DNA of 64,000 nt from Zygnema cylindricum (Eukaryota > Streptophyta > Zygnematophyceae > Zygnematales > Zygnemataceae): contig JBBHKE010000333.1 of NCBI GenBank assembly GCA_037447655.1, positions 62,001 through 126,000 on the forward strand. The letters run 5' to 3'. A model generated the notes under the pieces. The model saw only the letters and a program-made list of their open reading frames with translations. It was not told the origin of the DNA and did not search any database. The translations under genes and the position numbers were made by a program. Below, piece after piece: positions 3,727-58,711 of this stretch. How positions within the stretch are numbered: the first letter of the stretch is position 1; the number at the start of each line of letters is the position of its first letter.

Positions 3727-3790
3727 AAAATGCTACTCTAGAACGGATTTGAACCTGATACCTACTGGCTACGTATAGCCGTACACATTA
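3727..3790 (-). promoter_or_regulatory. Antisense tRNA-like module of E1 LTR
   Basis: On the minus strand GGTTCAAATCC (3755-3745) is a perfect Pol III B-box/T-loop consensus. It is followed within about 15 nt by TTTT (3730-3727), a Pol III stop signal. A convincing A box was not seen in this copy. Confidence 0.55.
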
Positions 3791-3821: not shown

Positions 3822-4820
3822 TGCAACTCTGAGACATCCATTGGTACTCAGAGTAGATAGCTTACCAGAAGCCTCTAGGATAGCCTCAATCCCTTAGTCT
3901 TTGTATGAGTATTGCTGACACCTTGACAAAATACAGACTGACCAAACTGCACCTATTGGAAGAGCTGACTCCCATGAGTCTGCCACAAAAAGAATCCTTT
4001 GAATTTGCTCCCCTGAGCAGTTAATTATCAATGGTCAAAGATGACATTTTATACATGAGCACTATGGGAGAGAAGCTGCTACCTATTGTTTCTAAGTCCT
4101 GAACCCCTCTCTTATCCCTCTACTACTGAAGTACAAGACAAATCAATTCAGTGTACAGTACAAAAAGGTACTTGGTCGGAGTACTTTCTGTACGGCCATT
4201 ATACGACATGGCCAAGAAGACGACGTCTGCCATATCCGCGTTCGCCATGGTATGTCCCGGAGATGCCGCCATCCAATGTCATGTTGCCACATGTCACGCG
4301 GCGTGGTTGTGACCGCAAACCGCCAAATCGTCCATTTCACGATGTCGGCTTCTTCCTCCGCCGTCCGATTGATATCGACCTTAAATTATAGCCGTTTAAA
4401 ATACAAGCAGTACTTTTTGATGTGATTCTTTCTAACTATGTCTATGTGATTATAGTGCATTTGTCAGTTAAATGAACTTTCCTATTTTCATGCCTTTAAG
4501 TAGCTATCGTACCCTATATAATTTGACACAGGTGTTAGGCTACATGGTATCGACCCTGGGCTACTTGGACGGACGGTAGGTACTAGGATCAAATCCCGGG
4601 TCCGTTAACCTTTTTGGTAAGTTTAACAAAGGGCTACCTCCAAACTCTAGGAGAATCATAGGCAGCCATGGCTCTAGCTTCTTCTTCAGCCTCCAGTGAC
4701 AACGACAAGTATGGAGGCTAGAGAGAGAAGTTAGAAACAGGCTGCCTTTGCTTTTCCTTCCTCATTTTATATTACTTAAGAAACCTAAAAAATATATAAG
4801 AAAACAATCTAATTTTAACA
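3822..4820 (-). repeat. D1 3' LTR
   Basis: On the + strand it reads tgcaactct...ttttaaca. An antisense (here plus-strand) B-box match ggatcaaatcc lies at 4586-4596 with T5 at 4611-4615. A perfect 8-bp hairpin lies at 4688-4719 (agcctcca / tggaggct) around the conserved LTR loop. It is followed toward the internal region by ctcccttatttt, the complement of the polypurine tract. Confidence 0.92.
4536..4615 (+). promoter_or_regulatory. Antisense tRNA-like module of D1 3' LTR
   Basis: Reading plus strand (antisense to D1): A-box-like TAGGCTACATGG (4536-4547), B box GGATCAAATCC (4586-4596) inside an outer stem ACGGAC/GTCCGT, then TTTTT (4611-4615). The same arrangement is in the 5' LTR, with its B box at 9781-9791 and T5 at 9806-9810. 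Confidence 0.55.
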
Positions 4821-10682: not shown

Positions 10683-11250
10683 CCTATCTACTGAAGTACG
10701 AACCAATCACATAACTTTATGGTACAGAAAGGTACGACGGCCGATGTACTTTGTGTTCGGCTTGTGTACATGAGGCCATCGAGTGGACACGTGTCCACTT
10801 TTAACTCGTTCTTCTGTTCTCCGGAATTCCCGCGACCGAATGTTATCTCTCCACGTTTTGCCAGGTCACGCCATGTCCACAAACCGCCAAGGTGACCATT
10901 CAGCGATTTCAGCAATGATATGTGCCGTCGGATTACAAACCGACATTCAATATTATCCATCGAAACAAATATCCGATTCATTTGTTTCGTGCGAGATAAT
11001 GTTTCGCACTATATAATACTTGGTTTTATGTTGTTTCATTTGTCATTCCATTAATCGGATATAGGGTCAAAACACAGTTTAAATAAATATCACACCTTAT
11101 GTATTTCAACAAAATTCTACGACTCATCGAATAGAGCTGACGGCTCCGCCTCGCTCTACCGGTCGGAGGTTTTATTTTTGCCTGACTCAACCTTTTCTTG
11201 AAGAGTGACATAATCACTCTTTAGTCGTGCTTGCTGAACTAGGACAGCCA
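10683..11250 (-). repeat. Partial family-B LTR, reversed
   Basis: It matches the reverse complement of family-B LTRs from the U3 block near ctactgaagtacg to the gacagccat block. Both ends are missing: the left abuts the E1 LTR end and the right abuts B1. Its B-box region (about 11155-11180) is mutated beyond recognition. Confidence 0.75.
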
Positions 11251-15414: not shown

Positions 15415-16460
15415 TGTAGAAATTAATGGTTTTAAGTATTTTCTAGGTCTGAATAGAAACAAAGAAGCCGAGGCAGTCTACCTCTAACTTCTCTCTCCAA
15501 CTCTCAAACTTGTCGCAGTCACTGAGAAATTGGAGAGGAAGCTAGAGCAATGGCTACCTAGGCTATCCTCAGGTTTACGGGAAATTTATATTAGTCTAGG
15601 GATTAATTACTAAAAGTTATGTGCCGGCGGCAGGATTTCATCCTGGTACCTGCCGGCCGACAGATGGTAGATAGCCGGTAGCCTTAGCCGTTAAGTCTAG
15701 AGGTACTGTTCATAGCATATAGTACGATATTTATTTAAACATGTACACGTAGGATAAATCATTTAACTATAACTATTAACGGGATAAATAGATATGGTAT
15801 TGTAAAAGTACGAATTGCGGTACGGATAAGAAATCAATACCGCGCATTTATTCCGTAAGTGAAACGAATACCGCGCATGTATTTATTACGGCTACGATTA
15901 AATTAGATTCTAATCGGACGGTCGGAATTAGCGTCGAGATCGCGGAAGACGATTTCGGCGGTTTGTGGCCATCGCCACATCGGATGACGCGTGGCGCAAT
16001 TACATTGGATCGTGGAATCTCCGGAGATCATGACACCGAATCCGAATATGACATGTGTCGACATTTGGGCCATGTCGTACAATGTTCGTACATAAAGTAC
16101 ACCGGCAATTGTACTTTTGCGTACGGAACTTTATTCTGATTAGTTCCGTACATCAGTAGATATAGTCTGTGAGAGAGATAGGACTTAGAAAAATTAGGAG
16201 ATAGGACCCTCTCTCCCAGAGAGCTTCTGTACAAAAGGTCAACTTTGACCCTCCATAACTTACTGCTCAGGGGAGCAAATTCAGAGATTATTTTTGCTAT
16301 TGACTCAGGGGAGTCTTGCCTTCACAGAGGTGCAGGTGGTCAGAGTTTTTGTCTGCCAGGGTGGTAGTTTTTTTTGCTGAAACACAAAGGGGTCAGGATT
16401 ATCCTAGAGGCTTCTTGGAAGCTGTCCACTCTGAGGACTTATGGAGGTCTCAGAGTTTCA
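15415..16460 (+). repeat. A2 5' LTR
   Basis: This 1046 bp repeat runs from tgtagaaatt to gagtttca. The conserved loop acttgtcgcagtcact is at 15508-15523 in a hairpin. The antisense B box has one change (ggatttcatcc on +, 15633-15643), with a T4 run on the minus strand at 15615-15612. The inverted repeat ggtcaactttgacc is at 16237-16250 and the GACTC..GAGTC block at about 16300-16315. Confidence 0.92.
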
Positions 16461-33664: not shown

Positions 33665-35845
33665 TGTTGATATTATTAGATTTTTATGGTTTTTTCTAGG
33701 TCTAAATAGTTCAGTACAAATAAGAAAAGAAAAAAGCAGACAACCTGCCTCAACCTCCTCTCTCTAACCTCCATACTTGTTGTAGTCACTAAGGTATAAA
33801 GAGGATGGTTGAGCCATGGCTGTCATAGCTCAGCATATAGGACTAAAGAGGGACTTATGTAACTCTCAAAAAAAGGTTGAGTTTGGCGAGACTCAAACCT
33901 CTGACCGGCAGAGCGCGGCGTAGCCGTCAGCTCAATCTAGTCTATCGTAGAAGTCCGTTAGGATACATTAGATTTGATAAATATTTAAACAGTGTTAAGA
34001 CCATGAATTCGATTAACGGAATGACCAACGAAAAGACATAGAACCAAGTGTATAAAGTGCGAACATTATCTTGCACAAACAAATGAATAGGACATTTGTT
34101 TCGACGGTTGATATTTAATTTCAGATTTAGTCCGACGGCATATTTCACTGTCGAGATCGTGTAATGGTCGTTTTGGCTTTTATGGACGTGGGTGTTGATA
34201 TTTGAGTATTTTCTAGGTCTTTATAGAAAAAGAGCAAAGGCAGTCTGTCCCTGACTCCCTTCTCCAAGCCCCCACACTTCTTGTAGTCACCGAAGGCTTA
34301 AAAGGGAGCTAGAGCCATGACTGCCTAATCTCACTAGAGAAGACAGGGGGTGGATTAGGTAGATTTATCAAAAGGTACTTGACGGACCCAGGAATTGATC
34401 CTGGTACCTGCCGTCCGTCAAGTTTCCGTAGCCATTAGCTTTAACCGTTAAGTCTAGGACTAATATTACATTATATTGGGTTTGATAAATATATAAATTC
34501 TTAAATGTAGATTAATTCGTTTAACGGAGAATAGATACTTAGTGCATAGATACAGTTTGATTTAGTACGGAGTACGGTATGGGGACGGAACGGATACCGA
34601 GCATTTGTTTTGACAGCGAAACAAATACCGCGCGTCGAGTTTCAGCGGCTTGGATTATAGCCGGTTTTTATCGGACGGCCGCGATAGGCGCCGCGATCAC
34701 GGAAGAAGTACTTTTGGCATTTTACTATATTTGCCACGTCAAATGACACGTGGCGTGATAACATTGGATTACGAGAACTCCAGAGATTACGAAACAAATC
34801 TTGATTTGACACGTGTCGACATTTTGGCCATATTGTACAATGGTCGTACATAAAGTACACCGGCACCTGTACTTCTCTGTACGACACAATAATTTGATTG
34901 GTGCCATACTTCATTAGATAGAGTTTTAGAGGGAAAAAACGACTTAGAAAGTTTTGGGTAGGTAGCTGCCTCTCCTAGAGAGCACCTTGTATAAATGGCA
35001 AACTTTGGCCAGCCATAACTATCGATTTACTTGACCATTTTCAGTGATTTTTTTTTGCTGCGAACTCAGGGGAGTCCAAGCTACACAAGGGTGTAGCCGG
35101 TCAGAGTTTCTACTTGCCACGGTGGCTGCATTTCTAAGGGAAAGTCAAAGTGGGTGAATGTGTCCAAACCTCATATTCTTACTTTGCATTCTGTGGTGGA
35201 ACTGAGCACAGAGAAAGTCTTATTTCACAGGGGTGAAACAATAATGGGTCTTTGATTGTCAAGGGGTCAGTCATTTGGGTTTATATCAACTTGGAGTCGG
35301 CACTATCTAGATAAGTTTCTTTTGGATCTGCGATTTCTGTGGGCAATGGAGCACACAGAGTTTCAGTGGCATGACGTGGCGCCACGCGGAGGGATAACAT
35401 TTGGTCAAAGGATTTCTAGAGAATATAAGGATGAGTTAAAAGTGGACACGCGTCCACTCAATGGCCTTGCCGTACACAAGCTGTACAGAAAGTACATTGG
35501 TCATAGTAACTTTCGGTACCCTACAGTTATTTGATTGGTTCGTACTTCAATAGATAGGGGTTGTGAGAGGGGTTTAGGTCTTAGAGAATTTGGTAGGTAG
35601 TGATCTATCTCCCTTTGAGAGTTTGAATAAACTTGGTATCTTTCCCACATCATATCTTATCGGTCGGTTAGGTGTTTCAGTGATTCTTTTTGCTATGGAC
35701 TCAGGGGAGTCCAAGCTGCAAAGGGAGGCAATCTGACTGTCAGTTTGCCTCTTAGGGCTGCAGTTGTTGTGGCTTGAAGTAGGTTAGTTAAAAACTATTT
35801 AGGGGCTTCCTGAATTTTGTAGTCAATGGAGGACACATATTTGCA
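33665..35845 (+). repeat. B3 5' LTR, interrupted by S1
   Basis: LTR parts 33665-34192 and 35371-35845, about 1003 bp together, ending atatttgca. Antisense B box GGTTTGAGTCT at 33899-33889. The conserved hairpin near 33765-33805 is partly decayed. Confidence 0.85.
34193..35365 (+). repeat. Solo family-C LTR S1 (TSD gtggg/gtggc)
   Basis: An 1173 bp LTR runs from tgttgatatt to gagtttca with no internal region. It sits inside the B3 5' LTR and is flanked by gtggg (34188-34192) and gtggc (35366-35370). U5 is clearly shared with C1. Antisense B box GGATCAATTCC at 34401-34391, T4 at 34373-34370. TATA-like tataaatgg near 34990. Confidence 0.88.
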
Positions 35846-39849: not shown

Positions 39850-40856
39850 TGTTGAAATTATTAGATTTTTATGGTATTTTTTAGGTCTATATAGTTCAAT
39901 AAAAATACGAAAGGAAAAAGCAGACAGCCTGCCTCCACCTCCTCTCTCTACCCACCATACTTGTTGTAGTCTCTGAGGGATAGAGAGGGTGGTTGAGCCA
40001 TTGTTGTCCTACCTTAGCAGGCAGGACTAAAGAGTAACTTTTGTCACACTCAACAAAAGGTTGAGTCTGGCAGGACTCGAACCTCTGACCGGCAGAACGC
40101 GGCGTACCCGTTAGCTCTATCGAGTCTGTCATAGAAGTTTGTTAGGATACATTAGGTTTGATAAATATTTAAACAATGTTAAGACCATGAATTTTTTTTA
40201 ACGGAGTGACTAACGAAAAGACATAGAACAAAGTGTTATATAGTGCGAACATTTTCTCGCACGAAACAAATGAATCGGACATTTGTTTCGACGACCGACA
40301 TTTAATCTCGGATTTTATCCGACCGTGTATATCACTCCCAAGATCTTGTAATGGTCACTTTCGCGTTTATGGACGTGGCGTGACGTGGCGCCACGCGGAG
40401 GGATAACATTTGGTCAAAGGAATTCTAGAGAATATAAGGATGAGTTACAAGTGGACATGCGTCCACTCAATGTCCTTGCCGTATACAGGTGGTACAGAAA
40501 GTACATCGGCTGTAGTACCTTTCTGTACCCTACAGTTATTTGATTGGTTCATACTTCAGTAGATAGGGGTTCTGAGAGGGGTTTACGGCTTAGAGAATTT
40601 GGTAGGTAGTGATCTCTCTCCCTTTGAGAGTTTGTATAAACTTGGCATCTTTGCCACATCATATCTTATCGGCTGGTTGGCCGTTTCCAGTGACTCTTTT
40701 TGCTATGGACTCAAAGGAGTCCACGGTGCACAGGGGTGCTGTCAGACTATCAGTTTGCATCCTTGGGGAGTAATTGTTGTGGCTTGAATTGGGTTAGTTA
40801 AAAACTATCGAGAGGCTTCCTGAATTTTGTAGTCCAATGGTGGACATATAATTGCA
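39850..40856 (+). repeat. B3 3' LTR
   Basis: 1007 bp from tgttgaaatt to ataattgca, after polypurine tract aaaaaaaggggag. Antisense B box GGTTCGAGTCC at 40083-40073, T4 at 40058-40055. TATA-like tgtataaac near 40632. Confidence 0.9.
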
Positions 40857-41878: not shown

Positions 41879-41883
41879 GGTGG

Positions 41884-43076
41884 TGTTGAAATTTAAGAAT
41901 TTTCTAGGTTTAGAGATTGTAAAATAAAAAGGCAAAAAGGGGACACTGACAACCTACCTCTAACTCTTCACTCAAGTCCCCACACTTGTCGCAGTCACTA
42001 AAGACTTGAAGAGGAGTTAGATCCATGGCTGCCTAGGCTGTCCAAAGTGGACAGGAAGGCAATTCTTAATAGAGTTATCTAAAAGGTATGACGGATTCAG
42101 GATTTGATCTTGGTACCTGTCGTCCGTCAAACTAGCCGTTGGCTTTAACCAACAAGTCTAAATACGGTGCTAGAGTACAATAGGTTTGACAAATATTTAT
42201 ATTTGTACACGTAGACTATTTCGTCTAACGCAAATAGATACGTAATGCATAGATACAGTTTTGTATAGTACGAAGTACGATTTAATGTATTTTATGAAAC
42301 GTATACCGCGCATTTGTTTCGAACGCGAAACAAATATCGCACGTATATTTTCAACGGCTACAATTGTATCCGATTTGATCGGATGGCCACGATAGGCGCC
42401 GCGATCACGGATAATGTACTTTTGGCGTTTTTTAGTCATCGCCACGTCATGGGACACGTGGCGCAACAATGTTGGATTGCGGCGACTCCGGAGATTGCGG
42501 TAACAAATCCGGCTATGACACGTGTCGACATTTTGGCCATGTTGTACAATGGTCGTATAGAAAGTACACCGGCACCTGTACTATTCTGTACGACACACTA
42601 ATTTGATTGGTGCCGTACTTCAGTAGATATAGTTTTAGAGAAGGAATAGGACTTAGAAAATTTTGGGTAAGTAGCTGCCTCTCCCAGAAAGCACCTTGTA
42701 TAAATGGCAAAATTTGGCCAGCCATAACTTTCAATTTACTTGACCATTTTCAGTGATTCTTTTTGCTACGGACTCAAGGGAGTCCAGGCTACACAGGGGA
42801 GTATTCGGTCAGAGTTTTTTTTTTGCCAAGGTGGCGGTATTTCTAAGGGAAAGTCAAAGTAGGTGAATGTGTCCAAATCTCATATTCTAACTTTGCATTC
42901 TGTGGTGGAACTCACCACACAGAAAGTGTTATTTCACAAGGGTGAATCTATATTTGGGTTTTGATTGTCAAGGGGTCAGTCATTTGGGTTTATATCAACT
43001 TGGAGTCGGCACTTTCTAGATAAGCTTCTTTTTGGATATGCTTACTCTGAGGGCCAATGGAGGTCTTAGAGTTTCA
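41884..43076 (+). repeat. C1 5' LTR
   Basis: 1193 bp, tgttgaaatt to gagtttca. Hairpin 41964-42017 around the conserved loop. Antisense module 42160-42081 (A-box-like TAGACTTGTTGG, B box AGATCAAATCC with one change, T4). TATA-like tgtataaatgg near 42698 followed by the inverted repeat tggcaaaatttggcca at 42705-42720. Confidence 0.93.
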
Positions 43077-44070
43077 AGTTATGGGCCCACCATCTAGGGT
43101 GCCTATGTTTGATGGAACAGGCTTCACTTATTGGGCGTTTAAAATGGAGGGATTGCTTTTCGAGAAGCACTTATGGGGAATTTTTGCGGGACAAGTGAGA
43201 TGTCTGCCACCTGGCTTTGGAGGAGCTTACTATGGAGATTCATCTGAGGATGCCCAGAATATCAATCGGAGTTCAGATGCAACGGAAGGTGAAGGGAAAA
43301 ATCTTTCCGTGGATGGGGAAATATGGGAGAAGGAAAAAGAGACACATATGGTGAGAGGAGCTAGGCTCTCAGCTATGGTACCACATGTAGGGATTAAAAC
43401 TGAAGAAAATGACAGAAAAATATGGGAATACAAAAACACTATAGCAAAACATCTCATACTTAGATATGTGTCTAAGTCGATAGATATCACTCTTTTAAGT
43501 CTAACCAAGTCCTCAAAGATACGGGAAGCACTAATTCAGATTTATAAGAGTGAGACTATTCAGAGGCAGCAATTAGTAAAACAAGAAATAGAGGCCTACG
43601 TTTATAATGGCGGTAGCATGATAGAGTTTTGCAATGATATTGTTGCGTTATATGTTGAGCTAGCTAGTGCGGGATATGTAGAATCTGAGGAGAGTAAGAT
43701 TAATACTCTACTTATGAAACTCCCAAGTGAGTACGAAAACATCATTTGTCGTATGCAGGCAATGGATGGCTCCTCATGGACTTGGAGCTTTACCATGGGG
43801 ATAATTCTTGTAAGGGAAAGCATTTTGGAGCTTCGTAGGGGAAAGGACAGGGTCATTGCATTTTCAGCTGGTGGTGATTGGCGGAAGCGTGATGAGAGGA
43901 ACGGCGGTGACGAGCGGAAGCGTGATGAGAGGAACGGTGGTGACGAGCAGAAGCGTGATGAGAGGAACGGTGGTGACGAGCGGAAGCGTGATGAGAGGAA
44001 AAAAGACAAAGGTAAACCTTATCGGAACTTTGGTGGAAAAAGAGGGAGAGGAAAAGACACGAGGCTTTGA
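43057..44070 (+). CDS. gag: C1 gag, intact 337-codon ORF
   Basis: The start ATG at 43057 lies 20 nt inside the LTR. The frame passes through the PBS (43077-43091, agttatgggcccacc) and reads MEVLEFQVMGPPSRVPMFDG, like families A and B. It has the UBN2-like gag domain (SETIQRQQLVKQEIEAYVYNGGS, LLMKLPSEYENIICRMQ) and then a very charged tail of four 11-residue repeats of the KRDERNGGDE type (about residues 274-315), a likely RNA-binding region. The stop at 44068-44070 comes just before the zinc knuckle, which lies in the -1 frame. This is the only gag in the window with a fully open frame from the LTR start. It should assemble particles and bind element RNA. Confidence 0.85.
   Translation: MEVLEFQVMGPPSRVPMFDGTGFTYWAFKMEGLLFEKHLWGIFAGQVRCLPPGFGGAYYGDSSEDAQNINRSSDATEGEGKNLSVDGEIWEKEKETHMVRGARLSAMVPHVGIKTEENDRKIWEYKNTIAKHLILRYVSKSIDITLLSLTKSSKIREALIQIYKSETIQRQQLVKQEIEAYVYNGGSMIEFCNDIVALYVELASAGYVESEESKINTLLMKLPSEYENIICRMQAMDGSSWTWSFTMGIILVRESILELRRGKDRVIAFSAGGDWRKRDERNGGDERKRDERNGGDEQKRDERNGGDERKRDERKKDKGKPYRNFGGKRGRGKDTRL
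43876..44006 (+). repeat. 33-bp coding tandem repeat in C1 gag
   Basis: About four units of a 33 bp sequence containing gatgagaggaacggyggtga, encoding KRDERNGGDER-type repeats. The units are nearly identical, which suggests recent expansion. They are absent from the gag of families A, B and D. Confidence 0.9.
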
Positions 44071-45098
44071 AAAAAGGGGTTTGCTTCTTTTGTAGGGAAC
44101 CGGGTCATTATATGGAGGAATGCCCTTGTTTGGAAAAACTTAGAAGTTGGAATGTGGATGAGGAGGACGAAGAGGAAGAGGAGAAAGAGGATGAAGAAAA
44201 ATTGGAGCTTCTTCACATCGGTAGAATGGGGAAGAGAGAAAAGTACACAAAAATTGCTTGAAGGCAACTGTGTGCTTTTGGAGGTATAAGGGAAGTAAAG
44301 AGAGAAGAGGTACTTGAGGATGTCGAGGAGTGTAGAGTGTATGATTTAGAAATGAGAAAGTCAGATTTAGGATCCATAAGTGAAAACGGGAAAGAAAAAA
44401 TTAATGAGGATAGTTTTATAGACAATAGGGAAACAAAAAACTGGTCGGAAAGGGAGACTTCAACGGATTCCGAGGAAAGGGGAGAAGTGAAACTCGAAGA
44501 GGTTTTAAAGGATAGGGGAGAAAAGAAATATTTGATTAAAGGTTTAGGGGAGAAGAAATATAAATTGGGAATTAAAATAGAAAGTGATAGTGGAAAGAAT
44601 TCCATGGGAGAGATTGAGGGAAGTTCAGAAAATGGGGTAATTATCATGGATAAAAATATGAGTACGGAAGATGTAGATCTTATGAGGAACTTAGTGGGGA
44701 CTAGTGTTTGTTGGGAATATTTGGTGGTGGATGGATTTGACATCACTACTTGGTGTGATGTCGCTTGTGAAGATGTGCCTGTAAAAGGGTTATCATCCGG
44801 GTGTGTGTTGCCGGTTGGGGATGGGGCTGGTTGTTTGAATTACAAGAGGGAAAGTGGATTTAACGTGGATGAAAAAGAAAGGAGGTGGATAAAATCTTTG
44901 CTTGGATTTATGAAAAGTGGCATGCAAAATAAAATGTATGATCAACAAGATGAAATTATTTTTGGTCATCTAATACACTTTCTTAAATATAAAAGTATTC
45001 GCTTGAAGCTTCATGAAGGAAAAATGAAAAATGAAAGGAAAATATATATATATATATATATATATGTATTTGTTGTTTTTGATGGGAGTTCAAAGTAA
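44067..45098 (+). CDS. C1 ORF2: zinc knuckle plus condensed pol pieces
   Basis: One frame, interrupted only by a TGA at 44259-44261, covers a knuckle CFFCREPGHYMEEC, an acidic stretch and LCAFGG (normally just before protease). It then jumps to CRVYDLEM (integrase C-terminus), SERETSTDSEERGE (linker), GLGEKKYKLGIKIESD (after the RT active site), GVIIMDKNMSTED, DITTWCDVACEDVP and VGDGAG (RNase H), RWIKSLLGFMKSGMQ and SIRLKLHEGKM (RNase H end). The 44337-45098 part is open for 253 codons. No protease DSG, integrase triad or RT YVDD remains, so no enzyme is expected. A TA microsatellite at 45043-45064 adds an IYIYIY tail. It may make a gag-associated protein, or may only act as a spacer. Confidence 0.7.
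45043..45064. repeat. TA microsatellite
   Basis: About eleven TA units near the end of C1 ORF2, encoding alternating I and Y. Confidence 0.95.
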
Positions 45099-45107
45099 GT
45101 AGACGAG

Positions 45108-45120
45108 AAAATAAGGGGAG
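45108..45120 (+). other. Polypurine tract of C1
   Basis: aaaataaggggag directly before the 3' LTR TG, the same form as in A2. Confidence 0.85.
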
Positions 45121-46310
45121 TGTTGAAATTTAAGTTTTTTCTAGGTCTAGAGATTGTAAAATAAAAAGGCAAAAAGGGGACACTAACAACCTACCTCTAA
45201 CTCTTCACTCAAGTCCCCACACTTGTCCCAGTCACTAAAGACTTGAAGAGGAGTTAGATCCTGGCTGCCTAGGCTGTCCAAAGTGGACAGAAAGGCAATT
45301 CTTAATAGAGTTATCTAAAAGGTGTGACGGATCCAGGATTTGATCCTGGTACCTGTCGTCCGTCAAACTAGCCGTTCGCTTTAACCAACAAGTCTAAATA
45401 CAGTGCTAGAGTACAATAGGTTTGACAAATATTTATATTTGTACACGTAGACTATTTCGTCTAACAGAAATAGATACGTAATGCATAGATACAGTTTTGT
45501 ATAGTACGAAGTACGATTTAATGTATTTTATGAAACGTATACCGCGCATTTGTTTCGAACGCGAAACAAATATCGCACGTATATTTTCAACGGCTACAAT
45601 TGTATCCGATTTGATCGGACGGCCACGATAGGCGCCGCGATCACGGATTATGTACTTTTGGCGTTTTTTAGTCATCGCCACGTCATGTGACACGTGGCGC
45701 AACAATGTTGGATTGCGGCGACTCCGGAGATTGCGGTAACAAATCCGGCTATGACACGTGTCGACATTTTGGCCATGTTGTACAATGGTCGTACAGAAAG
45801 TACATCGGCACCTGTACTTTTCTGTACGACACACTAATTTGATTGGTGCCGTACTTCAGTAGATATAGTTTTAGAGAAGGAATAGGACTTAGAAAATTTT
45901 GGGTAAGTAGCTGCCTCTCCCAGAGAGCACCTTGTATAAATGGCAAACTTTGGCCAGCCATAACTATCAATTTACTTGACCATTTTCAGTGATTCTTTTT
46001 GCTGCGCACTCAGGGGAGTCCAGTCTACGCGCGGTGTATTCGCTCAGAGTTTTTTTTTGCCAGGGTGGCAGTATTTCTAAGGGAAAGTCAAAGTGGGTGA
46101 ATGTGTCCAAATCTCATATTCTAAATTTGCATTCTGTGGTGGAACTGACCACACAGAAAGTGTTATTTCACAGGGGTGAATCTATATTTGGGTTCTGATT
46201 GTCAAGGGGTCACTCATTTGGGTTTATATCAACTTGGAGTCGGCACTATCTAGATAAGCTTCTTTTTGGATATGCTTACTCTGAGGGCCAATGGAGGTAT
46301 CAGAGTTTCA
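45121..46310 (+). repeat. C1 3' LTR
   Basis: 1190 bp, nearly identical by eye to 41884-43076. Antisense module 45396-45317. Ends caatggaggtatcagagtttca, so it also carries a gag start codon. Confidence 0.93.
45317..45396 (-). promoter_or_regulatory. Antisense tRNA-like module of C1 3' LTR (best copy)
   Basis: Minus strand: A-box-like TAGACTTGTTGG followed by TTAAAGC (45396 down), close to a tRNA D arm. Then an outer 7-bp stem TGACGGA/TCCGTCA encloses the T-arm-like hairpin CCAGG-ATCAAAT-CCTGG with B box GGATCAAATCC (45346-45336). TTTT follows at 45320-45317. A true acceptor stem at the 5' end was not found, so this is tRNA-like and not a tRNA gene. Confidence 0.6.
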
Positions 46311-47325
46311 GGTGGGCCCATAACCTGCAATTCTGTGTCCTCCATTAGACTACAGAATTCAAGATGCCTCTAGATAGCTTTTAACAAACCCACTTCAAGT
46401 CACAACCAATAGAGATCAAGAAAGCAAACTGACAGGCTGATTGCACCCTTGTGCATCTTGGACTCCCCTGAGTCCGTAGCAAAAAGAATCACTGAAAATG
46501 GTGAACTAGCTGATAAGGTATGTGGTGGCAAAGATGCCTATTTTATACAAATGCTCAAGGGGAGAGGTGACTGTTTTACCAAAATTCACTAAGTCATAAT
46601 TCTCTCTAATAACTCTTATCTACTTAATTACACACCAATCATATTACTGTACTGTACCAAAAAGTACTACTGCCAGTGTACCTTTTGTACGACCAATGTA
46701 TGACAGGGATATTACGTGGATGCGTGCTCTCTTTTTACTCATTAGTAGGTTCCTTGGAATTTTAGCTACCAAATGTTATCTCTCCACGTGTTGCGAAGTC
46801 ATGCCACATCACAAAATGGCCAAAGTGACCACTCCGAGATCACGGCGCTGTATGCGCCGTTGGATAAAAACCAAAATGTAATCTCAACTGTCCAAACAAA
46901 TGTCTGATTCAATTTTTTCGTGCCAATCATGTTTGCACCAAATTTTATTAGTTCTATGTCCTTATATTAACATTTTCGTTAATCGGTTTAGAGGACCGAA
47001 CACAATTTAAGTAGAAATCACACCTTATGTATTCTAGCAAACTTCTACGAGAGACTGGTTAGAGCGGACGGCTACGCCACGCTCTGCCAGTCGGAGGTTA
47101 GAGTCTTGCCGGACTCAACCTTTTGTCGAGAGTGACTTAAAGTCACTCTTTAGTTCTACCTAATAAAGCAAAGGCAGCCATGGCTCCACTACTCTCTCTC
47201 TCTCTTTCAAGGACTACAACAAATATGGGGGATAGAGAGAGGGGTCGACGCAGACTACTTGCGCTTTCCTTTTTGTTTTTCAACTCAACAATTCACACTT
47301 AGAAAATACTTCACAAATTTCAACA
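46311..47325 (-). repeat. B4 primer-binding site and 5' LTR
   Basis: PBS 46311-46325 (exact half-tRNA-iMet type) followed by a family-B LTR at 46326-47325, 1000 bp, + strand tgcaattctg...tttcaaca. The gag ATG is inside, on the minus strand at 46345-46343. The B box is degraded (ggttagagtct, 47097-47107), but T4 at 47122-47125 and the 8-bp palindromic block remain. It is cut off from B4 gag by C1. Confidence 0.88.
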
Positions 47326-47665
47326 AATTTCTTCTCCTTCCTCTATAAATCCTTGTGGTTGTCTCATAAATATTTTTTACTCTAGTTCACTGTTGAAGAA
47401 AGCGGTCTTGATATCCATCTGGTGAATTTCCATGTCTTCAGCTTCTGTTAGACTAAGGAGAATCTTTACAGATGAGAACCGAACTACTAAAGCAAAAGTC
47501 TCCTCATAATCTATCCCTTCTTTTTGAGTGAACCCCTTTGCTACCAACCGAGCCTTATACCTTTCAATTGTATTATCTGGGTTCAGTTTAAGTTTAAACT
47601 CCCATTTGCACCCGATCGGTCTTCAGTTCGGAGGGCAGTCCACTAGTTCCCAAGTATTTGCTTCC
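47326..47665 (-). pseudogene. pol: B5 left fragment: RT
   Basis: Minus-strand RT from the [33 protein letters not shown] region through ETFALVVRF and DIKTAF to a QPQGF-EEGEE block at 47326, where the B4 LTR begins. Stops occur (for example in the ELEEE block). It continues on the other side of A4 at 54113. The 3' part, with YVDD and RNase H, is lost. Confidence 0.82.
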
Positions 47666-48710
47666 TGCAACTCTGAGACCTCCATAAGTCCTCAGAGTAA
47701 ACAGCTTCCAAGAAGCCTCTAGGATAATCCTGACCCCTTTGTGTTTCAGCAAAAATAACTGCCACCCTGGCAAACAAAAACCCTGACCACCTGCACCCTT
47801 GTGAAGGCAGACTCCCCTGAGTCGATAGCAAAAAGAATCTCTGAATTTGCTCCCCTGAGCAGTAAGTTATGGAGGTTCAAAGTTGACCTTTTGTACAGAA
47901 GCTCTCTAGGAGAGGGGGTCCTATCTTCTAATTTTTCTAAGTCCTATCTCTCTCACAGACTCTATTTATTGATGTACGGAACCAATCAGAATTGAGTTCC
48001 GTACGCAAAAGTACAGCTGCCGGTGTACTTTATGTACGGACATTGTACGACATGGCCAAAATGTCGACACATGTCAAATCCGGATTCGGTGCCATAATCT
48101 CCGGAGATTCCACAATCCAACGAAATTTTGCCACGCGTCATCCGATGTGGCGATGGCCACAAACCGCCGAAATCTTCCTCCGTGATCTCGGCGCTAATCC
48201 CGACCGTCCGATTAAATTCGGATTTAATCGTAGCCGTAATAAATACATGCGCGGTATTTGTTTCACTTACAAAACAAATGCGCGGTATTGATTTTCGTCC
48301 GTACCGTAATTCGTACATTATATATTACTGGATCTATGTATCCCGTAATCCATTTGAGTTAAATGATTTATCGCACGTCTAATCATTTAAATAAATATCA
48401 AACTACATGTTACGTAATATTACGGCTAGACTTAACGGCTAAGGCTACTGGCTATATCCTGTCTGCCGGCCGGTAGGTACAAGGATCAAATCCTGCCGCC
48501 GGGACATTCTTTTTAAATAAATAAACCCTAATATAAAATTCCCGTAAACCTCAGGATAGCCAAGGTAGCCATGGCTCTAGCTTTCTCTCCAATTTCTCAG
48601 TGACTGCGACAAGTTTGAGAGTTGGAGAGAGAAGTTAGAGATAGATTGCCTCGGCTTCTATATTTCTTTTCAGATCTAGAAAATACTAATAAAAACCATT
48701 AGTTTCTACA
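47666..48710 (-). repeat. A4 3' LTR
   Basis: 1045 bp, + strand tgcaactctg...tttctaca. Plus-strand B box 48483-48493, T5 48510-48514. The polypurine tract complement ctccccttatttt follows at 48711-48723. Confidence 0.95.
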
Positions 48711-50361
48711 CTCCCCTTATTTTTTTGTCAATCTTTATTTTCAGACCACACTTCTCCCAACAGAAAATTAGCTTAGGGGAAGGCACAGGTTTGGTCATCA
48801 TATCTGCTACCATCTCACTATCTAGTCGGTACTCTAAACTGATTATTTTGTTTTCGACTTTTTCTCTAACAAAGCTGAGTCTGATGTCCATGTGTTTGGC
48901 TTTAAAATGATGTTTAGGATTGGCAGAAATAGCGATTGCTGCCTGATTATCACAAAATATTTTCTGCACACCACTCTTAAGGTAGCCAAGCTCACCAAGT
49001 AAAGACTTGACCCACATCAATTCTTTTACAGCAGAACAAGAGGCCATATACTCAGCCTCCATGGTGGACTGAGCAATAACCCTTTGCTGTTTACTACTCC
49101 AACAGCAAGCCCCATCACCCACATATAATACATATCTTGAAGTGCATCTCCTCATCGGAGCATCACCATAACTGGCATCACTCCAAGTAGTGATGTCAGT
49201 ATTCTCCCCACCCAAATGCAACCATAGATCCCTAGTTCCTACCAAATATCTAAGGACTCTCTTAGCTGCCTCCGAATCCTTCTTAGTGGGAGCATTTAGA
49301 CTTCTACTCAGCACTCCTACAGCTGCAGCTAAATCCGGCCGGGTACAATTCATAAAATAGATTAGACTTCCCACTACTTGCCTGTAAAGAATAGTCTGCA
49401 TGAACTTCTGTTCATCAGGAGATAATTCCTCGTCTAAGACTATGACTCCTTCTTCCTCACTCCCCTCACTTCCTTTCTTCAACTCCATTGGAGTTGTACA
49501 ATTATTAGCTTTATCTATTTGAAATTTTTCAAGCATGTTCCCTATTGCTTCCTTTTGAGTCAGTCTTATAATTTTCCTTTTTCGGTCTCTCTCTACTTGA
49601 ATTCCCAAAATATATCTTGCTTCTCCCATATCCTTCATTTCAAATCTCCCCTTAAGATCGGTTTTCAGTTTGTTAATTTTTTCCATTGATTTACTTAAAA
49701 GAAGCAAATCATCAACATAAATTGCGATAAATATTAAACCTTCCTCATCTTCGAAAACATAGATTGAGTGATCTGAGCTGATCCGAATATATCCCAGACC
49801 GGTAAGAAACTCATCAAGCTTCATATTCCATTGTCGAGGTGCCTGTTTCAAACCATAAAGAGATTTAATCAGCCGGCATACCTTACTCTCCTCTCCTTCC
49901 TCCACAAAACCTTCGGGTTGTCGCATGAAGATCTCCTCTTCCAATTCACCATGCAAAAAGGCTGTTTTGATGTCCATCTGATGCACTTCCATGTCTTCCG
50001 CCGCTGCTAAACTGAGAAGTATGCGGACGGAGGGAAATCTGACCACCGGGGCAAAGGTTTCCTCGTAGTCAATTCCCTCCTTTTGTGTAAATCCCTTTGC
50101 CACTAATCTGGCCTTGTAGCGCTCGATTGTGTTATCTGGATTTAGTTTTAATTTGAAAACCCACTTACAACCGATTGGTTTTCGGTTAGGTGGACAGTCC
50201 ACCAGCTCCCAAGTATCGGATGCCATGATTGAAGCCATCTCCTCATTGATAGCTGTCTTCCACCGGTTTCTTTCTGGACAAGTCATCGCCTCTCCATAAG
50301 TTTGAGGTTCATCTTGATGAGATAGTTTAGTTACCTTGTTATTAACCTGTTTTTCTTGCAT
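48706..50361 (-). CDS. pol: A4 reverse transcriptase and RNase H, intact 551-codon ORF
   Basis: This ORF starts in the linker (MQEKQVNNKVTKL), so it is the 3' part of a normally longer Gag-Pol frame and the listed start is only the first Met after a stop. RVT_2 blocks: [59 protein letters not shown] and the catalytic YVDD at 49708-49719. RNase H: TTWSDASYGDAP (first Asp), STMEAEY (Glu), CDNQAAI (Asp), then HHFKAKHMDIRLSFVREKV and the MTKPVPSPKLIF end. No catalytic residue is visibly lost. The ORF runs past the polypurine tract into the LTR. It would copy element RNA inside particles, but it is not translated in frame with a functional gag because of upstream lesions. Confidence 0.9.
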   Translation of the reverse strand: MQEKQVNNKVTKLSHQDEPQTYGEAMTCPERNRWKTAINEEMASIMASDTWELVDCPPNRKPIGCKWVFKLKLNPDNTIERYKARLVAKGFTQKEGIDYEETFAPVVRFPSVRILLSLAAAEDMEVHQMDIKTAFLHGELEEEIFMRQPEGFVEEGEESKVCRLIKSLYGLKQAPRQWNMKLDEFLTGLGYIRISSDHSIYVFEDEEGLIFIAIYVDDLLLLSKSMEKINKLKTDLKGRFEMKDMGEARYILGIQVERDRKRKIIRLTQKEAIGNMLEKFQIDKANNCTTPMELKKGSEGSEEEGVIVLDEELSPDEQKFMQTILYRQVVGSLIYFMNCTRPDLAAAVGVLSRSLNAPTKKDSEAAKRVLRYLVGTRDLWLHLGGENTDITTWSDASYGDAPMRRCTSRYVLYVGDGACCWSSKQQRVIAQSTMEAEYMASCSAVKELMWVKSLLGELGYLKSGVQKIFCDNQAAIAISANPKHHFKAKHMDIRLSFVREKVENKIISLEYRLDSEMVADMMTKPVPSPKLIFCWEKCGLKIKIDKKIRGV

Positions 50362-50389
50362 TCTTTTGCTACTTCTCCTCCCCCCCTCA

Positions 50390-51600
50390 AAATCTGAGGC
50401 CAGAATAGATGGTTCTCGTGGATTCTTTCGATCAAACTCGGCTTCTCCCCTATCCCTTTATTCCGAATCAATTTCCACCACGTCTTCCGCTTCGAGTAGA
50501 GTTGTCACTGGAGTTTCCACAGCCGAGTCCTTTTCGGTCTGATTTGTTCCTGCAAGAATGTCATCTTCTCTAAAACCTGGATAGTTAGGAAGCTCAAAGT
50601 CATCGGAATTTTCTGACTCAAATCTGATTTTACTTACTTCGTATATTTGATGGAATCCACAGACTTTCCTTCATCCATAACTACTAGAAGCTTTACTAAG
50701 ATTATATCTTCCCTTTTTAGATCATAAACTCTATATCCTTTAACATCTTCATCATATCCTAATAAGTATCCCGGTTTTCCTTTAGGATCTAGCTTATGAT
50801 TGGACCGATCAGTATCTAGACTGAACACTTGACTGTCGAAAACCTTTAAGTGAGATATGTCTGGTTTCCGGCCTGTCCATCTCTCATAAGGTGTTTGATC
50901 TTTTATAGCTGAAGTAAGAACTCTATTCTTGAGGTAATTAGCACAGTTCATTGCTTCTACCCAAAACCTTTTTCCTATCTTTTTATCTCACAACATGCTT
51001 CTAGCACTATCACTTAGTGTTCTTTTTAACCTTTCAGTTACCCCATTCTGTTCCGGATTTTCTGGAACTGTCTTTTGATGTTGAGCCCCATCTTCCCTCA
51101 GAAAATTCTCAAACTGGTTAGAAGTATACTCTCCACCATTATCACTCTTTACTCTCTTGATTTGGAGTTTCATGGAGTTTTTCGCTCCATGCTTTATATT
51201 GTCTAAAACAATCCTCAGCTTCGGACTTGTTTTTCAAGAAATATACCCGGGAATACCGAGACCAATCATCAGTTATAGTCATCATAAATCTCTTCCCCCC
51301 CGGTGAGGGCACTTTAGCTGGTCCCCAAATATCTGTGTGTACTAGATCTAGAATTTTTTCTCCCTTATAGGTGGCTGATTTAGGAAAGGGTAATCTGTGT
51401 GCTTTACCTTGAGCACATCCACTACAATCACTTATATCATCACTTTCACTGAACTGAATCCCTTCCACCACTCCCATCTTTTTCATCTCTCTTAACTTAT
51501 CTAGATTCACATGCCCAAGCCTCTTATGCCACATCATAATATCATGAACACCAGCATAATAAAGTTTCTTCTTTTCATTACTTAAAACGAGCCTAAACAT
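50390..51600 (-). pseudogene. pol: A4 integrase and linker
   Basis: The HHCC region WHKRLGHVNLDKLREM and CSGCAQGKAHRLP (51530-51400) and the first core Asp region DLVHTDIWGPAK (about 51340) are open from 51600 to about 51165, where one extra base shifts the frame. The core resumes as VKSDNGGEYTSN and a NGVTERLKR block (about 51150-51030), with a stop near 50988. The C-terminal region 50951-50634 is open. The linker has a stop near 50460. Three or four lesions inactivate it. Confidence 0.87.
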
Positions 51601-51689
51601 CCCATGGCTACCATTCTCAGCAATGAAATAGACATCCTCCTCAAAACTAGCAGTAAAGACTCCTTCCCTAGTGCTAGTGAAAAAACCCT

Positions 51690-53081
51690 TATCATCTCAT
51701 ACTGATGTAGAGATAAGATTTTTGTTCAGCTCCGGAATAAACAATACATCGGAGAATATTAATATAGATGTCTTTCCTTCTACTAACACTTTCAAATCTA
51801 CCGATCCTACAAGAGTAGTGGTGACTATCCTCCCATCCCCATACTCTATCTCTACGGTGGGAATCTTTCTTATCTTAGTGAATAGGTGTCTATCCTTACA
51901 CATGTGCATGGAGGCACCTGCATCTACAATCCAGCCTGCTTCACCTTTCAGTCCACCGTAAGCACATTTCTGCCTTCGTGGAATTTTGACCTCATTTTTC
52001 GCCTCCAACTCCTCATCCAAAAGGAGCTCATCGTCCTCGTCCTCGGATTCCGCCTTGAGTACCTGGTTGACAAGGGCCTTTTTCTTTCCTCTCGGGGTAC
52101 CACCGGTCTGCCCCTCCTTTAACCTCAGCTCGGTTAGCTTAGTGCACTCTGCCATATAGTGCCCCGATTTCTTACAAAAATGACATAAACCTTTGGGAGC
52201 CCTTGTTTCGAACTCGTCGGACTGTTTTTTCTGCTCTTTACCCCATAGTTTCCGACCGGTTTTCGGGAATCCTTGTTCCTCCAATTAGTCGCTGTTGCCA
52301 AGGCTTGGCCACTCTTTCCTCCCATTCGGATCTCAATTGTATTCTCTTGAACGAGAATCATCCCTACCACTGAGTTCCATATCCACCTTGAGTCAGGCAA
52401 GTCCTGCACACGGTAAACTATGTTCACGAACTCATCAGGTAACTTCATCAGTAAACAGTTAACCTTTTCTTTTTCACTAAAATCTTTTCCCGCACTCTGT
52501 AGCTCCATGAAGAGTGTAGCAAGCTCATTGCAAAAATCCAACATATTTCCCCTTTTGTATACATACTCCTTAACTTTCTGATCAGCCAACTGTTGTTGCT
52601 GAATCGTACCACTTCGGTACATCTCTCAGAGAGCCATCCAAAGATCGGATGCTCTTTCTACCTGCAAATGAGGACATGCAAGTCCTTGAGTGAGATGGCG
52701 TAGGATGAAGTGCTTTGCCGCCATATTGTTGAAGTCCCAGGTTTCAGTATCATTCTCCTCATTCCTCGGAAAAGGCGACATGAATGTCGAACCAGTTGCT
52801 ATTGGTGTGGTCGTCTCCTTCTCCTTTCCTTTGTCCACCACCTCTCCTTCTTTTGTTTCCTCCGTTGAAGATGGATCCTCTTTCCTAGTGAATCTGGTTC
52901 CTCCAAATCCTGGAGTAATTCTAAGACTTGATGGACGCCCCAACCGTCCACTCACTATCCCCCAAAACCTTTTTTCACATAGAGCTCCTATCATCATACT
53001 TTCCCAGAATATGAAGCCGGTTCCATTAAAGATTGGTACCTTAGAGGGTGGGCCCATAACCTGCAACTCTGAGACCTCCAT
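51690..53081 (-). pseudogene. gag: A4 gag and protease
   Basis: ATG at 53081-53079 inside the LTR, PBS 53047-53061. The gag domain is open except for a TGA at about 52623-52625 (WMAL-stop-EMYR). The same frame continues to 52134. A lost G near 52244 moves the knuckle (CHFCKKSGHYMAEC) and protease into another frame, 52284-51697. The protease motif reads WIVDAGAS, with the Ser of DSG changed to Ala (51913-51927). The catalytic Asp is kept, so the effect is uncertain. The acidic tail SEDEDDELLLDEELE matches A2. Confidence 0.88.
53047..53061 (-). other. Primer-binding site of A4
   Basis: Exact GGTTATGGGCCCACC on the minus strand directly next to the 5' LTR, overlapping gag codons 7-11. Confidence 0.82.
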
Positions 53082-54107
53082 AAGTCCTCAGAGTAAACAG
53101 CTTCCAAGAAGCCTCTAGGATAATCCTGACCCCTTTGTGTTTCAGCAAAAAAAACTGCCACCATGGCAGACAAAAACCCTGACCACCTGCACCCTTGTGA
53201 AGGCAAGACTCCCTTGAGTCGATAGCAAAAAGAATCTCTGAATTTGCTCCCCTGAGCAGTAAGTTATGGAGGGTCAAAGTTGACCTTTTGTACAGAAGCT
53301 CTCTAGGAGAGGGGGTCCTATCTTCTAATTTTTCTAAGTCCTATCTCTCTCACAGACTCTATTTACTAATGTACGGAACCAATCAGCATTGAGTTCCGTA
53401 CGCAAAAGTACAGCTGCCGGTGTACTTTATGTACGGACATTGTACGACATGGCCAAAATGTCGACACATGTCAAATCCGGATTCGGTGCCATAATCTCCG
53501 GAGATTCCACAATCCAACGAAATTTCGCCACCCGTCATCCGATGTGGCGATGGCCACAAACCGCCGAAATCTTCCTCCGCGATCTCGGCGCTAATCCCGG
53601 CCGTCCGATTAAATTCGGATTTAATCGTAGCCGTAATAAATACATGCACGGTATTTGTTTCACTTACGAAACAAATGCGCGGTATTGATTTTTGTCCGTA
53701 CCGTAATTCGTACATTATATATTACTGGATCTATGTATCCCGTAATCCATTTCAGTTAAATGATTTATCGCACGTCTAATCATTTAAATAAATATCAAAC
53801 TACATGTTACGTAATATTACGGCTAGACTTAACGGCTAAGGCTACTGGCTATATCCTGTCTGCCGGCCGGTAGGTACAAGGATCAAATCCTGCCGCCGGC
53901 ACATTCTTTTTAAATAAATAAACCCTAATACAAAATTCCCGTAAACCTCAGGATAGCCAAGGTAGCCATGGCTCTAGCTTCCTCTCCAATTTCTCAGTGA
54001 CTGCGACAAGTTTGAGAGTTGGAGAGAGAAGTTAGAGATAGACTGCCTCGGCTTCTATATTTCTTTTCAAACCTAGAAAATACTAATAAAAACCATTAGT
54101 TTCTACA
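53062..54107 (-). repeat. A4 5' LTR
   Basis: 1046 bp. Plus-strand module 53824-53911: A-box-like tagacttaacgg at 53824-53835, B box 53880-53890, outer stem tgccggc/gccggca, T5 53907-53911. Confidence 0.95.
53824..53911 (+). promoter_or_regulatory. Antisense tRNA-like module of A4 5' LTR
   Basis: Same layout as in C1 with a different outer stem (TGCCGGC/GCCGGCA instead of TGACGGA/TCCGTCA), the same B box GGATCAAATCC and the same T run. Repeated in the 3' LTR at about 48427-48514. Confidence 0.58.
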
Positions 54108-56960: not shown

Positions 56961-57948
56961 TAGACTATAGAATTCAAGAAACCTCTTGATAGTTTTTGAC
57001 TATTCCTTCTTTAGCTAGAATCATAGATACCTAAGTAGGCAAACAAGCAATATGAATACACCCCTGTGCAGTCTAGACTTTTTTGAGTCTGCAGCAAAAG
57101 AAATCACTCAAAAAGCCCAACCAGGCAATTAGTTATCAAGTGGCAAAGATGACAAAATATATCCAAGCTCATTCGGAGAGAGGCGGCTACCTCCTAAATC
57201 TCCTAAGTCCTAAACCCCTCTCACAACCCCTATCTGATGATGTACGAATCAATCAGAGAATTGTAAAGTACAGAAAGGTACCCGGGCCGGTATACTTTCG
57301 GTAGGATCTGTGTACGACTTGGCCATTGAGTGGACGCCTGTCTCTTCCGGATTAACCCTCATTCTCTCCGGGATTCTCGCTTCCCAATGTTTTCTTGCCA
57401 CGTTCCGCCAGGTCATGTCATGCCCAAAAACCGCCAAAGCGACCATTTCGGGATCTCGGTGATGATGCGCGCCGTCCGATTCAAAATGGCTTTGAATGTT
57501 AGCCGTTGAAAATCGATGTCCGGTAAATCCGTTTCGTGCAGTTTCACGTTCGCACTATAATCCGATTTGTTTCTATATTACTTATCCGTAATTCCGTAAA
57601 TCGGATGAGTGAACTCTGACATATTTAAACACTTATCATACCCCATGTAATCTAACGGACTTCAACAACAGACCGGCTAAGGCTAACAGCTACGCCTCGC
57701 TTTGGCGGTCGGAGGTTTGAGTCTTGCTTGACTCAACCTTTTTGTTATAAGTGACTTATGTCACTTCTTCTGACCTGCCTAAGGAGCCAAGGCAGCCATG
57801 GCTCCACCACCCTCTCTTTCCTTCAGTGACTACAACAAGTATGGGGGATAGAGGGGAGAGGTAGAGGCAGACTGCCTACGCTTTTCTTTTCTATTTTCAC
57901 CAAGCTATTGAGACCTACAAAATACTTTATAACTCTAATAATTCAACA
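56941..57948 (-). repeat. B5 5' LTR
   Basis: 1008 bp, + strand tgcaattctg...attcaaca. B box ggtttgagtct at 57714-57724, T5 57739-57743. Confidence 0.9.
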
Positions 57949-58711
57949 TGTACCACTCTTATGGACTTGAAAAAAGTAAGTGGTGGAAGTGTAGAAGGAG
58001 AAGTGATAAATTTTGATGATCAAACTAGCCTAGAAGAGAGAGAGTTTAATAAGTCTATTCCTTGCAGGCAGGTTGTAAGAAGTCTAATATACTCTTTAGT
58101 CCTTCCTATGGAGTTGAGGCAGCCATGGCTCCATTGCTCTCTCTCTCTCTCTCCTTCAGTGACTACAACAAGTATGGGGCGAGAGAGAGAGAGAAGAGAT
58201 AGAGGCAGGCTGCCTACATTTTCTTTTCTAATAAATTTAGACCTAGAAAATATATTAAAAACTACTTATTTCAACACACACTAACATCACTACTTGGAGT
58301 GATGCCAGTTATGGGGACGCACCTATGAGAAGATGCACTTCTGGGAATGTGTTGTATGTGGGGGAAGGTGCTTGCTGTTGGAGCAGGAAGCAACAAAAGG
58401 TGGTTGCTCAGTCTACAATAGAGGCTGAGTACATGGCCTCTTGTTCTGCTGTAAAAGAGTTGATGTGGGTTAAGTCCTTGTTGCAAGCTATAGGGTATAT
58501 GAAGGAGGGAGTGCATAAAGTGTTTTTTGATAATCAAGCTGCCATTGCAATTGCAGCTAATCCAAATCATCATTTCAAAGTTACGCATATGGACATAAGA
58601 TTGAGTTTTGTGAGAGAAAAAGTTGAGAATAATATTGTGAATCTTGTATATAGATCTGATGAGCAAATGGTGGTTGATATGATGACAAAACTACTACTTT
58701 CTCCCAAGTGA
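57949..58711 (+). pseudogene. pol: B6 RT end and RNase H
   Basis: 57949-58091 encodes CTT-MDLKKVSGGS-EGE and RQVV-SLIY, the stretch between RT and RNase H. The next expected block, FMN-TRPD through the start of RNase H, is missing and replaced by an LTR end fragment. 58277-58711 resumes at TNITTWSDASYGDAPMRRCTSG and is open to the end (EAEYMASCSAVKELMWVKSLL, FDNQAAIAIAANPNHHFK, MTKLLLSPK). RNase H catalytic acids are retained, but there is no RT. Confidence 0.83.
58092..58276 (-). repeat. 185 bp family-B LTR end fragment
   Basis: Reverse complement of the first part of a family-B LTR (tctttagtcc...ttcaaca), including the conserved hairpin and a CT microsatellite at about 58137-58161. It sits exactly where about 240 bp of pol are missing. 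Confidence 0.8.

Follow-up and report, generated by a model that had tools for sequence, protein, structure and literature searches.

Does the U3 region of a group of related long terminal repeats (LTRs) carry, on its antisense strand, a transcription unit of the kind read by RNA polymerase III (Pol III)? The question is raised by a family C LTR, where a reading of the sequence alone had proposed a tRNA-like Pol III-type module lying antisense in the U3 of every LTR family in the window. The window, meaning the whole 64-kb stretch analysed here (42% GC), belongs to a 352.8-Mb assembly and is a nest of copia-type elements. It contains 11 open reading frames (ORFs) of at least 200 amino acids; Pfam, run on eight of them, found matches in six and none in two, comprising RVT_2 (two), copia gag (two), SH3-like (one) and Pol_BBD (one, with a gag-pre-integrase match below the cut-off). 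Self-comparison combined with LTR ends delimited 22 LTR copies, distributed among family A (7), B (2), C (3), D (9) and E (1 fragment), with those possessing both ends measuring 985-1193 bp by our own trimming. Gag or pol ORFs are present in elements of families A, C, D and E, and orientation was derived from gag and RT ORFs, primer-binding sites (PBS), PPT-like tracts and target-site duplications. The family E fragment is a 3' LTR extending from 3552 to ~3821, where it is cut by a family B LTR, with an RT ORF (1781-3244) directly before it. The LTR groups A-E are related, so a single ancestral event suffices to explain a module common to all of them.

The family C LTR in question closes an element at 41884-46310, in which the inter-LTR distance is only ~2 kb and which holds a gag-type ORF, with no RT match in the two ORFs scanned. 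Four further family C hit pairs are spaced ~3.0-3.2 kb apart and, given this spacing, family C may be a uniform gag-only family. The element is inserted at the PBS of a minus-strand family D element (46311-46325), its target-site duplication forming part of the D PBS. A family A element (47665-54107) has LTRs that are 97.7% alike, GGAAG flanking both sides and an RT ORF on the minus strand (48706-50361). Scans of IMG/VR and GTDB returned no RT relatives, and scans of IMG/VR returned no relatives of the PBS and module patterns. Matches to miRNAs at 58119-58213 were weak, lie in CT/GA-rich sequence and were set aside. The features of the family C element on which the argument rests are as follows.

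45121..46310, plus strand: family C 3' LTR carrying the unit; target-site duplication GGTGG at 41879-41883 and 46311-46315
41884..43076, plus strand: family C 5' LTR; module B box at 42100-42110
45316..45442, minus strand: whole antisense unit, from the T run to the upstream AT block; mean conservation 0.75
45317..45320, minus strand: terminator-like T4 run, starting 15 nt past the B box, read from the sequence
45325..45331: one arm of an acceptor-like 7-bp stem of families A, B and C; both partners changed in some copies, chiefly at two of the seven pairs
45359..45365: its partner arm, pairing with 45325..45331
45333..45349, minus strand: T-arm-like hairpin CCAGG-ATCAAAT-CCTGG, read from the sequence
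45336..45346, minus strand: B box GGATCAAATCC with T-loop ATCAAAT, read from the sequence
45378..45396, minus strand: D-arm/A-box-like TAGACTTGTTGGTTAAAGC, with the A-box-like part at 45385-45396
45420..45439, minus strand: upstream AT-rich block containing TATTTGTCAAAC (a TATTTATCAAAC-like sequence in other families), defined by alignment
45933..45943, plus strand: sense TATA-box-like TGTATAAATGG; conservation 0.86, fifteenth of the best separate 11-nt blocks

Alignment of the LTRs places the antisense block at the homologous U3 position in 22 of 22 copies. All 21 places named in the sequence-only reading lie antisense in this one homologous block of related copia LTRs, and the statement that every LTR family in the window carries the module holds for the 22 copies delimited. 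One named copy, given as starting at 47097, is a real site whose true position is 47096-47106; a 22nd copy, absent from the earlier list, lies in family D at 11168-11178 and has a decayed B box. Outside the family C element, the B-box places are the following.

15633..15643, minus strand: module B-box place, family A; strict 9-mer in 6 of 7 A copies
18346-18356, plus; 23732-23742, plus; 27461-27471, minus; 48483-48493, plus; 53880-53890, plus; 60581-60591, plus: other family A B-box places
4586..4596, plus, and 9781-9791, plus: module B box, family B
34391..34401, minus strand: module B box, family C relative C34191
11496..11506, minus strand: module B-box place, family D; strict 9-mer in 2 of 9 D copies (11496 and 40073)
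30639-30649, minus; 31347-31357, minus; 33889-33899, minus; 40073-40083, minus: other family D places
47096-47106, plus; 57714-57724, plus; 58998-59008, minus; 11168-11178, plus (decayed): further family D places
3745..3755, minus strand: module B box GGTTCAAATCC, family E 3' LTR fragment

Pol III promoters of the tRNA type have consensus forms of the A box and the B box, the latter being GWTCRANNC as a 9-mer and GGWTCRANNCC as a strict 11-mer. The three B-box strings first proposed for the module occur exactly at 12 of the 21 sites and differ at the other 9. The strict 11-mer occurs 13 times on the two strands of the window, 13/13 inside modules at listed sites, against a Markov expectation of 1.9 and a maximum of 6 over 200 simulations. 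Combined with a T4 run 10-20 nt further on, it is found 13 times (0.085 simulated), and with the addition of an A-box-like match of at most two mismatches 12 times (0.065 simulated); it was these features that had drawn the reader's eye, so the enrichment figures are no independent test. The 9-mer is not enriched window-wide, with 33 occurrences against 30 expected and 14 of them at listed sites, which agrees with the suspicion that chance B boxes in LTRs were merely selected by eye. That account is nevertheless very improbable: the strict 11-mers all fall in one homologous block in which the T run is fixed, and further copies outside the window agree with them, though the search profile included those columns. 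Within the window, the strict 9-mer is present in 14 of 22 copies, and seven of the eight misses belong to family D, in whose nine window copies the core C of the B box is C in four, T in four and A in one. A profile constructed from 19 modules recovers 22/22 copies and nothing further in the window at E<=10.

The second fixed feature is a T run downstream of the B box. The sequence-only reading had placed a T4-T5 run at 10-25 nt, and such a run is indeed present: a tract of T4-T7 starts 14-17 nt past the B box in all 22 window copies, an arrangement (T4 or longer at 14-17 nt) that holds for 2.1% of antisense LTR positions in general. Over the first 420 nt of the LTR, the T run corresponds to the sole A4 run on the sense strand common to at least 16 of 22 copies, and one T4 run near the LTR start is common to 19 of 22. 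The letters just preceding the T run vary in several A copies, the run itself staying in place.

Further loci, taken from the neighbourhood of other family C copies or from sequence adjoining the window, extend the sample with homologues drawn from the same single genome. The profile identified 11 more distinct modules, ten in 14 loci (55.5 kb) and one in L010, with the identical L011 module excluded; by eye they comprise one of type A, three of B, four of C or C-like, two of D and one of E. GWTCRANNC is present in 10 of these 11 and the T run at 14-17 nt in 11 of 11, counts that must be read with the profile in mind, as it contains the B-box and T-run columns and copies without them were less likely to be found. 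The new B-box variants GATCGAATC and GTTCAAAAC still fit the consensus. Across the resulting 33 copies, which omit seven near-identical family C copies (L009-L015) and the duplicate module of L011 and retain L057 (also family C, probably the partner LTR of another listed family C place), GWTCRANNC is exact in 24 (window 14/22, further copies 10/11) and the T run is kept in 33 of 33 while neighbouring letters vary. The second G is invariant (33), and W, T, R, A and the tenth-place C are each kept in 32; the first G is kept in 30, the core C in 27 and the last flanking C in 23. W is divided between A (19) and T (13) and R between A (20) and G (12), a variation lying mainly between families and thus representing few events. 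At the ninth place, where the consensus allows any base, 32/33 copies have T; together with the losses at the core C and the last C, this indicates a pattern of change that is mostly, but not purely, B-box-like. Among the omitted family C copies, L014 has a broken B box GGATTAAATCC, the B box of L013 ends in T and that of L012 is intact by eye. At L058, an E-type module (2605-2684) has the B box GGTTCAAATCT and a T run; its upstream part, TAGCGCCTTAATGGTTAAGG, appears by eye more D-arm-like than that of the window E copy and has no Rfam tRNA match.

Comparison along the LTR indicates how far the block stands out. Family-weighted conservation over 21 LTR copies is 0.75 for the unit versus 0.60 at 45276-45315 and 0.63 at 45443-45570; a wider left flank (45240-45315) reaches 0.69, and the LTR mean is 0.69. 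The 11-nt window at the B box ranks 29 of 1179, with nine other separate 11-nt blocks above it. The expected excess over flanking U3 was thus borne out against the immediate flanks, but other LTR blocks are equally conserved, and the LTR has several constrained parts, of which the module is one. The sense-strand TGTATAAATGG would be the Pol II TATA-like box of the LTR.

These other blocks, conserved equally or more, fit a possible though not probable account in which the module is a neutral or repurposed relic: a tRNA or tRNA-headed SINE captured backwards by an ancestral LTR and devoid of Pol III activity, the remainder being kept by descent or its sense strand acting as a conventional Pol II enhancer or as a hairpin element. 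The T run is at odds with such a relic, persisting in every one of the 33 copies despite its changing neighbours, and no SINE body or tail was noticed by eye.

Upstream of the B box, the resemblance to a tRNA gene is less even. The string TAGACTTRWYGG, with two mismatches to the A-box consensus, is present in A (one copy reading TAGAGTTAACGG) and C, and A-box-like matches with one or two mismatches occur in A and B copies; at the homologous place in D or E, the alignment revealed no recognisable A box of this type. The A-box-like match that had been claimed for A and C is therefore present in both but convincing only in C. Scored against 3000 background segments, the D-arm of the copy at 45121..46310 and that of C41882, also of family C, were equalled by none (0/3000), while the other 20 copies yielded p values of 0.006-0.60, with the reverse strand scoring higher in 4 of 22 and the best match in B and E lying away from the homologous place. 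Taken together, the D-arm and T-arm results show a T-arm/B-box end that is well kept and an A-box end that mostly is not. Further upstream, the AT-rich block lies ~25-35 nt before a tRNA-style start (family E being cut before it) and may play a TATA-like role. Plant tRNA genes are described as having AT-rich upstream DNA, often with a CAA or TATA motif, and a downstream T run in ~67-73% of cases (PMC11700998).

A covariance model built from 17 E. coli tRNAs and run unfiltered on the window returned 28 matches at E<=10, of which 10 are modules, all antisense, including 5 of the top 6. It thus matched 10 of the 22 window modules, with best scores of ~12 bits, and in eight loci outside (32 kb, 10 modules) 20 matches included five modules, among them the top two; the model leans on the T-arm, the same feature that flagged the module. 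Plain alignment to tRNAs divides the copies: no D copy (0/9) exceeds the shuffles, nor do A47664 and B3822, A22931 ties with them, and the remaining A-C copies and E exceed them. ARAGORN identified no tRNA genes in the window, and Rfam at its cut-off gave no tRNA match in the window or in the single D-, C- and E-type copies scanned. The best Rfam tRNA score, antisense at 45325-45394 in family C, is 14.5 bits (E 1.5) against a gathering cut-off of 29, so a complete tRNA fold is not borne out, and a true tRNA gene was set aside. Recent capture of a tRNA was likewise rejected, as the module profile matches nothing in 30 tRNA-gene loci of the genome (E<=10). The poor A box of most families and the missing complete fold are compatible with the backward-captured relic.

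Families A, B and C share an outer 7-bp stem, described at the outset as variable in sequence yet paired. In 20 copies of A-C type, 82% of its cells pair and 15 cells are doubly changed, with pairing, doubly changed cells and covariation score all above 500 of 500 shuffles and above all slid controls. Two counts on which relatedness has less effect did not rise above the shuffles: pairs with changes on both sides numbered 3 (shuffled mean 3.1) and further pair types 10 (mean 8.8). A count over 12 copies gave a similar picture; there, a single shuffle in 500 attained as many doubly changed cells. Most double changes fall at two pairs by which family A is set apart from the other copies; in alignment A5, the outer stem of L051b is out of register. 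Double changes do occur in the stem of A-C, but the stricter measures remain within the shuffles, so the stem covariation is suggestive only and our odds do not rest on it. The inner T-arm-like hairpin pairs in 77% of cells in the same 20 copies, and no pair has changed on both sides. Six single folds gave z values of -1.7 to -3.7 in four, -1.3 in one and +0.85 in one; of the four A-C copies folded, only C34191 had the drawn stem and T-arm as its minimum-energy structure.

The outer stem is absent from the D and E sequences in the alignment. In family D (11496-11506, 40073-40083 and others), the B box GGTTCGAGTC can pair with the following bases GACTCAACC, producing in folds a hairpin that differs from that of A-C. 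A relic maintained on the sense strand would be in keeping with the palindrome or hairpin carried by A-C and with the loss of the strict box in 7 of 9 window D copies; it is less easily reconciled with family E, two of the nine window D copies and three D- or E-type copies outside the window, which hold strict boxes without the A-C hairpin.

The likeness to a tRNA admits a further explanation, in which the sense U3 RNA is a second primer-binding segment that pairs with the 3' half of tRNA-iMet and links the two ends of the RNA, in the manner of the bipartite Ty3 PBS in yeast. The sequence GGTTATGGGCCCACC or a near variant lies directly past eight LTR copies of families A, B, C and D; we take it to match the anticodon arm of initiator tRNA-Met, that is, a half-tRNA primer. 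This half-iMet PBS, with the tRNA and element types, is the ground for regarding the sequence as plant. Against a general plant iMet sequence, GGTTATGGGCCCACC fits positions 25-39 and U3 fits ~41-67. For family C, a duplex of up to -47 kcal/mol is predicted, and all three copies place iMet at the top of a set of 25 tRNAs; by alignment, iMet is the nearest of nine tRNAs (eight types from this genome and the general plant iMet) for 11 of the 12 A-C copies. The agreement does not extend to the other families, since among the 13 of 22 copies tested, iMet ranks 3, 3, 9 and 15 in four A copies, comes second and third in the two B copies, and falls to 13-24 in E and three D copies. Moreover, each of the 12 A-C copies departs from iMet at the same three positions, of which one could pair as G-U, and family D has the same PBS without U3 complementarity, making a primer-binding role unlikely. 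Two D copies also have a site resembling iMet at about LTR position 130; it was discarded, being within a GAGCCATGGCTGCC-like block common to many copies. The LTR may have absorbed an older PBS upon a switch of priming to a half tRNA.

Several described systems resemble parts of this arrangement. Helenus (TRIMp3), reported by Kojima, comprises TRIMs whose LTRs include conserved boxes A and B as part of a tRNA-like sequence; these elements measure 311-1263 bp, and the sole plant Helenus listed there has a 120-bp LTR (PMC10886601). The same account notes that "not a few LTRs" in Repbase resemble part of a tRNA and kept TRIMs only (PMC10886601). As here, tRNA-like boxes lie in the LTR, conservation centres on the boxes and not on a working tRNA, target-site duplications are 5 bp in the plant and fungal cases, and most fungal families use anticodon-loop primers, comparable with the half-iMet PBS of the present elements (PMC10886601). 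By the Helenus standard, the B box of the present LTRs is mostly matched and the A box is weak. Helenus elements are short and non-autonomous, whereas the present LTRs span ~1.0-1.2 kb in elements with coding sequence; the tRNA-like part of Helenus is taken as its own promoter (PMC10886601), whereas the present elements possess a separate sense TATA-like box. The unit is also antisense in 22/22 copies here, whereas the sense orientation of Helenus is deduced from the promoter model of that paper (PMC10886601).

Cassandra, a plant TRIM, similarly has a Pol III control region within its LTR, but one derived from 5S (PMC10853983), and Rfam found no 5S rRNA match in the window. The Ty3 bipartite PBS includes a U3 segment complementary to tRNA-iMet arms (PMC5371799); the present elements differ in being copia-type, in that only family C fits iMet best and in the conservation of the non-iMet positions. 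Half-molecule tRNA-Met PBSs are documented for Osser, Bryco and part of Gymco-II (PMC6317226), to which the present elements are likened by PBS type and not by lineage placement; the term "polymerase iii" has no occurrence in the main text of that article. The sequence-only reading knew of no precedent, which is too broad, as tRNA-derived Pol III boxes in LTRs are described in TRIMs as Helenus (PMC10886601); within the literature searched, no antisense copy in coding copia LTRs was recognised. Pol III boxes of tRNA type are already known from LTRs; the novelty lies in finding them antisense, in the long LTRs of copia elements that have coding sequence.

The block is thus real and conserved: an antisense T-arm/B-box module whose T run is fixed, and for which a diverged Pol III-type unit is the best reading. 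The original proposal of an antisense Pol III-like module common to several copia families is partly supported at the sequence level: the B boxes are confined to the module, the T run is fixed, the tRNA model ranks modules first and conservation exceeds that of the immediate flanks, but neither a complete tRNA fold nor a general A box is supported. Our preferred reading, held tentatively and at slightly short of even confidence, is that the block is a diverged tRNA-gene-type Pol III unit, antisense in U3, inherited from a common copia ancestor and kept at least as a TFIIIC-type B box with a T run. Its layout matches that of plant tRNA genes, with an AT-rich TATTTATCAAAC-like block first, then the A-box-like stretch, next the B box and finally the T run. 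TFIIIC would bind the B box, and Pol III may initiate before the A-box-like segment and terminate at the T run, generating a putative antisense RNA of ~80-95 nt. Bound factors may in addition hold the U3 chromatin open near the Pol II promoter ~500 bp away. The B-box place and the T run are all that the five families share, so factor recruitment is a likelier kept function than a tRNA-like fold.

A wider proposition, more doubtful, is that a coding copia lineage keeps an antisense tRNA-type Pol III unit, pairing a sense Pol II promoter with a divergent TFIIIC-recruiting unit whose short antisense RNA would serve open chromatin or the element's own 3' U3 RNA. If active, the unit would be the first case known to us of coding LTR retrotransposons with a Pol III unit directed away from the Pol II promoter. 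It would then tie LTR chromatin, antisense RNA and TFIIIC together in plants, and small-RNA boxes in LTRs would be not merely the promoters of tiny non-autonomous elements.
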